A stretch of DNA of 64,000 nt from Peptococcaceae bacterium 1109 (GTDB lineage Bacteria > Bacillota > Limnochordia > Darwinibacteriales > Darwinibacteriaceae), in the NCBI GenBank assembly GCA_001028815.1, contig LDJB01000003.1:174850-238849 (forward strand), given 5' to 3'. The notes under the pieces are model-generated. The model saw nothing but the letters and a program-made list of their open reading frames with translations. It had not been told where the DNA came from and made no database searches. A program made the position numbers and the translations under genes. How positions within the stretch are numbered: the stretch's first letter is position 1; each line of letters starts with the position of its first letter. Below are positions 3,731 through 39,937 of the stretch, piece after piece.

Positions 3731-3815
3731 TTATCCCTTCGGTGTAGTCAGCAGTGCCTCGCGGCACCACAAACCTGTACCACTTGGTCGCAAATCTGCG
3801 CCCTAGGTACACTTT

Positions 3816-3886
3816 CGCTCATAGTCAGGCCATTTACGGTGGCCTGGTAGAAACTTGCAGACCGTATTACTGCGATTATATGAACG
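3816..3886 (-). ncRNA. Guanine-class purine riboswitch aptamer upstream of the pur operon
   Basis: The minus strand reads CGTTCATATAATCGC, then GTTTCTACC and CCGTAAATGG, then CTGACTATGAGCG, matching the conserved core of purine aptamers. The P1 arms CGTTCATA and TATGAGCG pair with one G-U. The pyrimidine that contacts the ligand is a C (GACTATG rather than GATTATG), which by established knowledge makes it guanine/hypoxanthine specific rather than adenine specific. It lies about 170 bases upstream of purE with a terminator between, so high guanine should stop transcription of purE-S-Q-L-F. Confidence 0.95.
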
Positions 3887-3911
3887 CTACTTTATGAAAT
3901 TGTCTAGTTTA

Positions 3912-39185: not shown

Positions 39186-39219
39186 AAAAAGCCTGGGAGC
39201 TTAACGCCCCCAGGCTTTT
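39186..39219. terminator. Bidirectional terminator between the LysM gene and the 59-residue ORF
   Basis: GCCTGGG and CCCAGGC pair; the plus strand continues TTTTG and the minus strand TTTTTAAG. It can end both convergent transcripts. Confidence 0.9.
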
Positions 39220-39222
39220 GCC

Positions 39223-39402
39223 TTATACCATCGATGTGAATGTGAGCCAATTGTGACTGGACTCGTTACTGGTTCTGATCTGCTGTTTCTGACGCGGATG
39301 GATTTCCAGTTCTAAGAATTTTGCCACGTTCTCTTTTCTGTTAACAGTTAGTCCCAAGCGGCTTGCCAACGAATGGTGAATCCGGATCAACATCTTTTCC
39401 AT
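39223..39402 (-). CDS. 59-residue basic protein of unknown function behind a c-di-AMP riboswitch
   Basis: The ATG at 39402 has AGGAG six bases upstream, a very good ribosome binding site. The product is short and basic: MEKMLIRIHHSLASRLGLTV, then NRKENVAKFLELEIHPRQKQQ and a serine/threonine-rich tail; it has no signal peptide or membrane helix. I know no family for it. It is the only reading frame between a consensus promoter plus ydaO-type aptamer (39441-39588) and a terminator (39186-39219). It may be a real small regulator, a leader peptide, or chance coding within a noncoding transcript. Confidence 0.5.
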   Translation of the reverse strand: MEKMLIRIHHSLASRLGLTVNRKENVAKFLELEIHPRQKQQIRTSNESSHNWLTFTSMV

Positions 39403-39440
39403 TCTGCCACTCCTTTCAGGCAAACATGATGCGCTTGGAT

Positions 39441-39553
39441 TACTCCTGTGAGGTTAGCTGACGGGTTCGGGCGTCCAAGTCGCCCTACTTGGCTGGCCAA
39501 GATTCACCCCAAAAAGACTGGGTCCCCCACGCCCTTGCGGCTTCGGAGATTTC
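39441..39553 (-). ncRNA. Cyclic di-AMP (ydaO/yuaA-type) riboswitch
   Basis: The minus strand carries the conserved blocks of this class in order: TCTCCGAAGCCGC, GGGGGACCCA, GGGGTGAATC, TAGGGCGA, then CCCGAACCCGTCAGCTAACC. The outer helix can form between CTCC and GGAG at the two ends. This aptamer class binds c-di-AMP and usually turns genes OFF for potassium uptake, osmoprotection or wall turnover. Here the transcript continues to a 59-codon reading frame. I see no terminator between aptamer and gene, so control could be at translation or at the terminator behind the ORF. Confidence 0.94.
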
Positions 39554-39559
39554 ACCTAC

Positions 39560-39588
39560 ATAATAACATCTTAACTATTTCCTGTCAA
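39560..39588 (-). promoter_or_regulatory. Consensus SigA promoter of the c-di-AMP riboswitch transcript
   Basis: TTGACA and TATTAT are separated by 17 bases on the minus strand. Transcription should start within a few bases of the aptamer's 5' end. Confidence 0.92.
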
Positions 39589-39937
39589 TACTATTAGGAA
39601 TAATTCTTATTTCGTAAAATTTTGCTCTCTCCTAGGGGCAGGAAAGCTGCGCGGACCTCCCTAATGACGAATTTCGTAACGTTTGACAAGAAATCGACGT
39701 GTTCGCCTTGGCAAGCTCAGTTTTTCCCTGAAGCGATTATCCTAAGGACATGAGAATATCTGGATCGAAATTCTTTTCGTCATTGTGGCGTAAGAAAGGA
39801 GGAAATGTCGATTTGTTAGAGAACCTCTTCCATAGCTGTACTGCTGTTAACTGAAACTATGCATTAAGGGAGGTGAAGGCGGAATATAGGATACGCCCTA
39901 CCTGCAGCACTAAAAACACCACAAGAGGAGGATTCTC
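39589..39937 (+). other. Leader region of the Afu/Fbp-type transporter operon
   Basis: This 350-base stretch has no convincing gene. It contains a perfect dyad ACGAATTTCGT at 39667-39677 and two further TTTCGT motifs near 39610 and 39773, which could be operator-like. A TTGACA at 39683-39688 lacks a -10 partner. A weaker candidate promoter is TTAAGG, 17 bases, TAGGAT at 39864-39892. GAGGAGG before the ATG at 39938 is the ribosome binding site. Confidence 0.35.

Follow-up and report, generated by a model that had tools for sequence, protein, structure and literature searches.

A single-gene unit with a predicted c-di-AMP riboswitch encodes a conserved small basic protein in one family of uncultured Bacillota

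Some small-protein regulators, such as SR1P and Sda of Bacillus subtilis, each come from a single gene and exert their effect by binding to a partner protein. Among c-di-AMP riboswitches, those characterised in PMC9960051 and PMC9337991 are OFF switches, while overlap of aptamer and terminator has been put forward as reasoning for an ON switch (PMC9337991). The nlpC riboswitch of Corynebacterium glutamicum has no canonical terminator, and its control has been inferred to be translational (PMC9960051). In the window, defined here as the whole stretch of 64,000 nucleotides that was analysed, the preliminary description had recognised a promoter, a complete ydaO-type aptamer, a ribosome-binding site, a short open reading frame and a terminator as a self-contained unit, and all of these were found, on the minus strand. 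The span given for it, 39223-39588, was right for the part covered and omitted the terminator and an upstream element at 39618..39594. The features are, from upstream to downstream:

39594..39618, minus strand: conserved operator-like element, TTTACGAAATAAGAATTATTCCTAA (consensus TTTACGAAWNNRGAATNAYTMYTAA), beginning 30 nt upstream of the -35 box
39588..39560, minus strand: sigma-A-type promoter TTGACA-17-TATTAT with extended -10 TG, 11 of 12 consensus matches
39427..39558, minus strand: c-di-AMP (ydaO-type) riboswitch aptamer, RF00379, 94.8 bits, pseudoknot strands intact
39403..39426, minus strand: leader of 24 nt with the Shine-Dalgarno sequence (SD) GGAG at 39413..39410, the terminator hairpin of the relatives missing
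39223..39402, minus strand: ATG open reading frame of 59 codons (59 aa), member of a new small-protein family with motif KFLELEIHPRQK, based on profile, alignment and selection
39187..39219, minus strand: intrinsic terminator of the unit, hairpin followed by U's, bidirectional, -26.0 kcal/mol, z -5.7

The transcript is short (approximately 370 nt), self-contained and terminated, with the 59-codon reading frame as its sole gene. The aptamer begins one base past the promoter end, the SD GGAG sits seven bases 5' of the ATG, and the terminator also ends a convergent plus-strand LysM gene (Pfam LysM), with -21.7 kcal/mol on that strand. A purine riboswitch (RF00167) is also present in the window, at 3802..3903 on the minus strand (91.5 bits).

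A covariance search with the ydaO-type model, which had been suggested as a check, matched the aptamer to RF00379 over the complete model (positions 1-134) with 94.8 bits (E 4.1e-21; gathering score 38), the highest score within its taxonomic family. The pseudoknot pairing CUUGGA/UCCAAG is intact in the window, and CUUGG/CCAAG is found in nearly all related leaders; the window aptamer is predicted to bind c-di-AMP. RF00379 is present in 57 of the 61 genomes searched, including that of the window, which also carries two genes with a diadenylate cyclase domain and one further c-di-AMP riboswitch, located ahead of a Na+/H+ exchanger gene.

The reading frame had been called an orphan, a label that had to be abandoned, as orthologues were found in 16 related genomes. 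Single-sequence tblastn of the window reading frame returned weak matches only (best E 4.6e-4), which are convincing because of their position just behind riboswitches. Reading the genes downstream of 80 riboswitches revealed 16 more reading frames of 47-58 codons sharing the motif (K/R)(F/Y)(L/F)x(L/W)ExHPRQK, with few single-position exceptions, and a profile search showed one copy per genome in 17 of the 23 genomes of the taxonomic family of the window. All 17 copies lie directly behind an RF00379 aptamer, starting 24-86 nt past it, with the promoter at an equal position in every case, a ribosome-binding site before each start codon and an own terminator after each reading frame. The proteins are 47-59 aa long when counted from the best start. 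The six family genomes without the reading frame (G001, G006, G008, G010, G015, and G022) have riboswitches that precede other genes, one G006 riboswitch cut by a contig end (G006 is 75% complete) being left out of this judgement, and no riboswitch of this unit without the reading frame was seen among the family genomes. The preliminary description had reasoned that a riboswitch kept alone, or kept before a larger gene, would mark the reading frame as a remnant; no copy exceeds 59 aa and the genomes that lack it show no such riboswitch, which favoured the protein.

Outside the taxonomic family, the profile search detected no member, either in 50 further genomes of the class or, leaving the genome of the window aside, in a phylum sample of 398 genomes; the genomes are mostly draft assemblies, and absence beyond the taxonomic family rests on samples. 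A motif scan of genome contigs produced 57 stretches and one confirmed relative, in UBA5493, which gives no evidence of wider spread since it was confirmed with the divergent window sequence only and chance matches of such a motif in this amount of DNA were roughly estimated at some tens. No family match was detected in Pfam, NCBIfam or PDB sequences, and PHROGs matches were only marginal, so that the protein is apparently undescribed, in the sense of not being found in the libraries and literature searched, the coverage of which is partial. The reading frames constitute a protein family that, in these data, is confined to a single family of uncultured Bacillota.

Alignment of the copies showed that M1, E33, H35, P36, R37, and K39 are invariant, and the window copy carries all of them. 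The invariant proline is spelt with four codons and the invariant glutamate with both. A synonymous excess was observed in five of five independent close pairs (pN/pS 0.17-0.46, combined p 1.5e-21), all drawn from the relatives, as the window copy has no close relative and shares 20-39% identity with the other members. The reading frame is not a remnant, and by this substitution pattern the copies of the relatives are under purifying selection. The pattern also bears on the earlier suggestion that the unit may be a regulatory RNA, namely a trans-acting RNA or a c-di-AMP sponge in which the reading frame is incidental. The short, self-contained and terminated transcript with no other gene in the unit would suit such an RNA, but the strong synonymous bias, the conservation of an amino-acid motif whose third codon positions vary freely, the good ribosome-binding site ahead of each start codon and the terminator that precedes the reading frame in the relatives, which suits control of that reading frame, make it highly improbable; selection at the codon level in the relatives argues against a pure regulatory RNA. 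The proposal of a riboswitch devoted to a small protein is supported by these results, and the unit is probably a single-gene, self-terminated one whose product, a conserved, small and basic protein of 47-59 aa, is an output of c-di-AMP signalling.

Two observations go beyond the preliminary description: the upstream element is specific to the unit, and the copy in the window has lost a terminator. In 16 of 16 relatives, an intrinsic terminator is located between aptamer and reading frame, and its first three bases are the final AAG of the pseudoknot strand CCAAG, as is the case in all 58 scored leaders of the family; terminator base and pseudoknot share these three nucleotides. The window copy is the only one of the 17 units without a terminator before the reading frame, only a few bases being left between CCAAGCG and the ribosome-binding site in comparison with G005, a loss that rests on one assembly. 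As the terminator is missing, control in the window would be translational or lost. Modelling of SD accessibility in the window leader gave an opening cost of 5.8 vs 3.6 kcal/mol, values that favour neither reading. Translational control, inferred for the nlpC riboswitch that likewise has no terminator, may apply here too. A second platform loss was noticed at L070 (G008), where the c-di-AMP riboswitch ahead of a Na+/H+ exchanger gene has lost both the 3' strand of the pseudoknot and the terminator.

The overlap in the relatives raises the question of the direction of control. Their riboswitches may be genetic ON switches, in which c-di-AMP would fold the pseudoknot and take the AAG from the terminator base, so that transcription proceeds, a reading that we hold tentatively and at somewhat less than even chance. 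It is consistent with the AAG overlap in 58 of 58 leaders, an arrangement that is itself the published argument for ON control (PMC9337991), with the lack of an antiterminator like that published for OFF switches (58 leaders, mean z +0.45), and with an identical architecture ahead of a Na+/H+ exchanger gene. However, the riboswitches characterised in PMC9960051 and PMC9337991 act as OFF switches, and the hairpin deprived of the pseudoknot strand still retains -15 kcal/mol, has its end roughly 1 nt away from the U-tract and may still terminate. ON control is compatible with a c-di-AMP-controlled single-gene unit as proposed above; its contrary is an OFF switch.

Genomic context analyses revealed that, in the same-genus genome G001, the flanking oxidoreductase, LysM and solute-binding-protein genes occur in equal order with no unit between them, while in G005 the unit and the LysM gene lie on different contigs, and therefore the unit was moved or lost within the genus of the window. 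In its new place it is still complete, with element, promoter, riboswitch, reading frame and terminator. Most relatives have a DUF4932 gene divergent to the unit (e.g., L159, L163, and L158), and near their units lie genes that were classed, solely by eye, as GH3-like and MFS-like; the window unit has not retained these neighbours, which were thus not used for function. Loss of the terminator, departure from the neighbourhood and a sister genome without the unit might together mean that the window copy is a decaying relic of a real family. The window copy being alone among 17 in missing the terminator, the empty site in G001 and the divergent protein sequence are in line with this, whereas the intact pseudoknot, an aptamer score at the top of the taxonomic family (94.8 bits), the presence of all invariant residues and the intact promoter, element, SD and terminator render decay unlikely.

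The 25-bp element is common to the units and lies at a constant distance upstream of the -35 box. With a leave-one-out matrix, 15 of the 17 units scored 17-38 bits, the exceptions being G007 and G013, while 64 other c-di-AMP riboswitch leaders from the same and related genomes reached at most 12.5 bits, all but one remaining below 6. The element has one match in the window and none in 100 shuffles, and it is retained there though the neighbourhood of the unit differs from that of the relatives. A regulon was sought in eight genomes, where the element was found at the unit and elsewhere only as two matches with three mismatches, near the control rate, leaving at most one good copy per genome; it was not found in G001, the genome without the unit. 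We read the element as a putative operator for a DNA-binding factor. In operators of the Fur/Zur/PerR type, a Fur-family protein binds a 7-1-7 inverted repeat centred on AATNATT. Many copies of the element have an AATNATT-like core, but their symmetry is imperfect and no genome has more than one good site; the resemblance to a Fur-family box, seen in some copies, is offered as a lead only. A stronger version of the proposal, in which the protein is a dedicated c-di-AMP effector that controls itself through this unique element, the riboswitch of the relatives is ON and the pseudoknot serves as antiterminator, seems doubtful to us, slightly more so than decay of the window copy.

The protein is small, basic (pI 9.6-11.3) and not hydrophobic overall. 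AlphaFold models, built from one and two sequences, were poor (pLDDT 60-63), showing at low confidence three helices in the window protein (residues 2-16, 22-33, and 48-58) and one in the protein of a relative (19-30), and the two models agree solely on a short helix ahead of HPRQK. A small partner-binding effector is our best guess for its role, and the pathway points to potassium, osmotic or envelope homeostasis as the process that it may serve; the designation as an effector of c-di-AMP signalling, already proposed in the preliminary description, is likewise presumptive. In the unit as we picture it, transcription would start at the extended -10 promoter, probably in response to a DNA-binding factor that occupies the upstream element, and the c-di-AMP aptamer would form in the nascent RNA. 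Whether the intrinsic terminator overlapping the pseudoknot then stops transcription before the reading frame would be decided by the aptamer in the relatives, while in the window, where the aptamer is 24 nt from the start codon, it would act on translation only, or the gene may escape control. The protein would most likely bind its partner via one conserved segment, the short helix with HPRQK, and this binding may adjust potassium, osmotic or envelope homeostasis, as do other c-di-AMP targets.

Other small genes occur behind riboswitches of this class. The earlier statement that known targets are potassium transporters, osmolyte uptake and wall hydrolases, not small unknown proteins, proved too strong in its negative part, since the same genomes have the class before zinc-ribbon-like proteins and Veg. 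The zinc-ribbon-like proteins (CxxC...CxxC) are a second small-protein class of about 53-63 aa, encoded immediately after c-di-AMP riboswitches in the taxonomic family of the window (in relatives, L054, L061, L065, L066, L069, L073, L076, L080, L083, L089, L100, L107, and L111) and sometimes followed by a 105-aa protein without Pfam match. Veg-like genes (PF06257, biofilm formation stimulator) also follow c-di-AMP riboswitches, both in this family and in its order (in relatives, L060, L075, L079, L085, L087, L092, L095, L099, L103, L104, L110, L113, and L119); the literature searches made found no link between Veg and c-di-AMP riboswitches.

The unit thus presents one conserved small protein outside known families as the probable output of a well-known second-messenger riboswitch, and it supplies a defined candidate c-di-AMP effector whose linkage is conserved in 17 genomes. 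In the leaders of the relatives, terminator and aptamer overlap as would be expected of an ON switch, and in the window copy the expression platform was lost or replaced. Like regulators of the SR1P and Sda type, the family consists of small proteins from single genes that would act on a partner, a likeness of size and organisation; the inputs differ. As in the C. glutamicum nlpC riboswitch, no terminator follows the aptamer in the window; however, nlpC encodes a cell-wall peptidase, and the relatives of the window copy have terminators. With the c-di-AMP riboswitch of B. subtilis the unit shares the complete aptamer with its pseudoknot and, in the copies of the relatives, the terminator that comes next. 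It departs from the published type in that the terminator base overlaps the pseudoknot strand, an antiterminator of the published type is absent and the window copy has no terminator before the reading frame, and from the B. subtilis type in that its sole gene encodes an undescribed small protein, and not a K+ or osmolyte transporter or a wall hydrolase.
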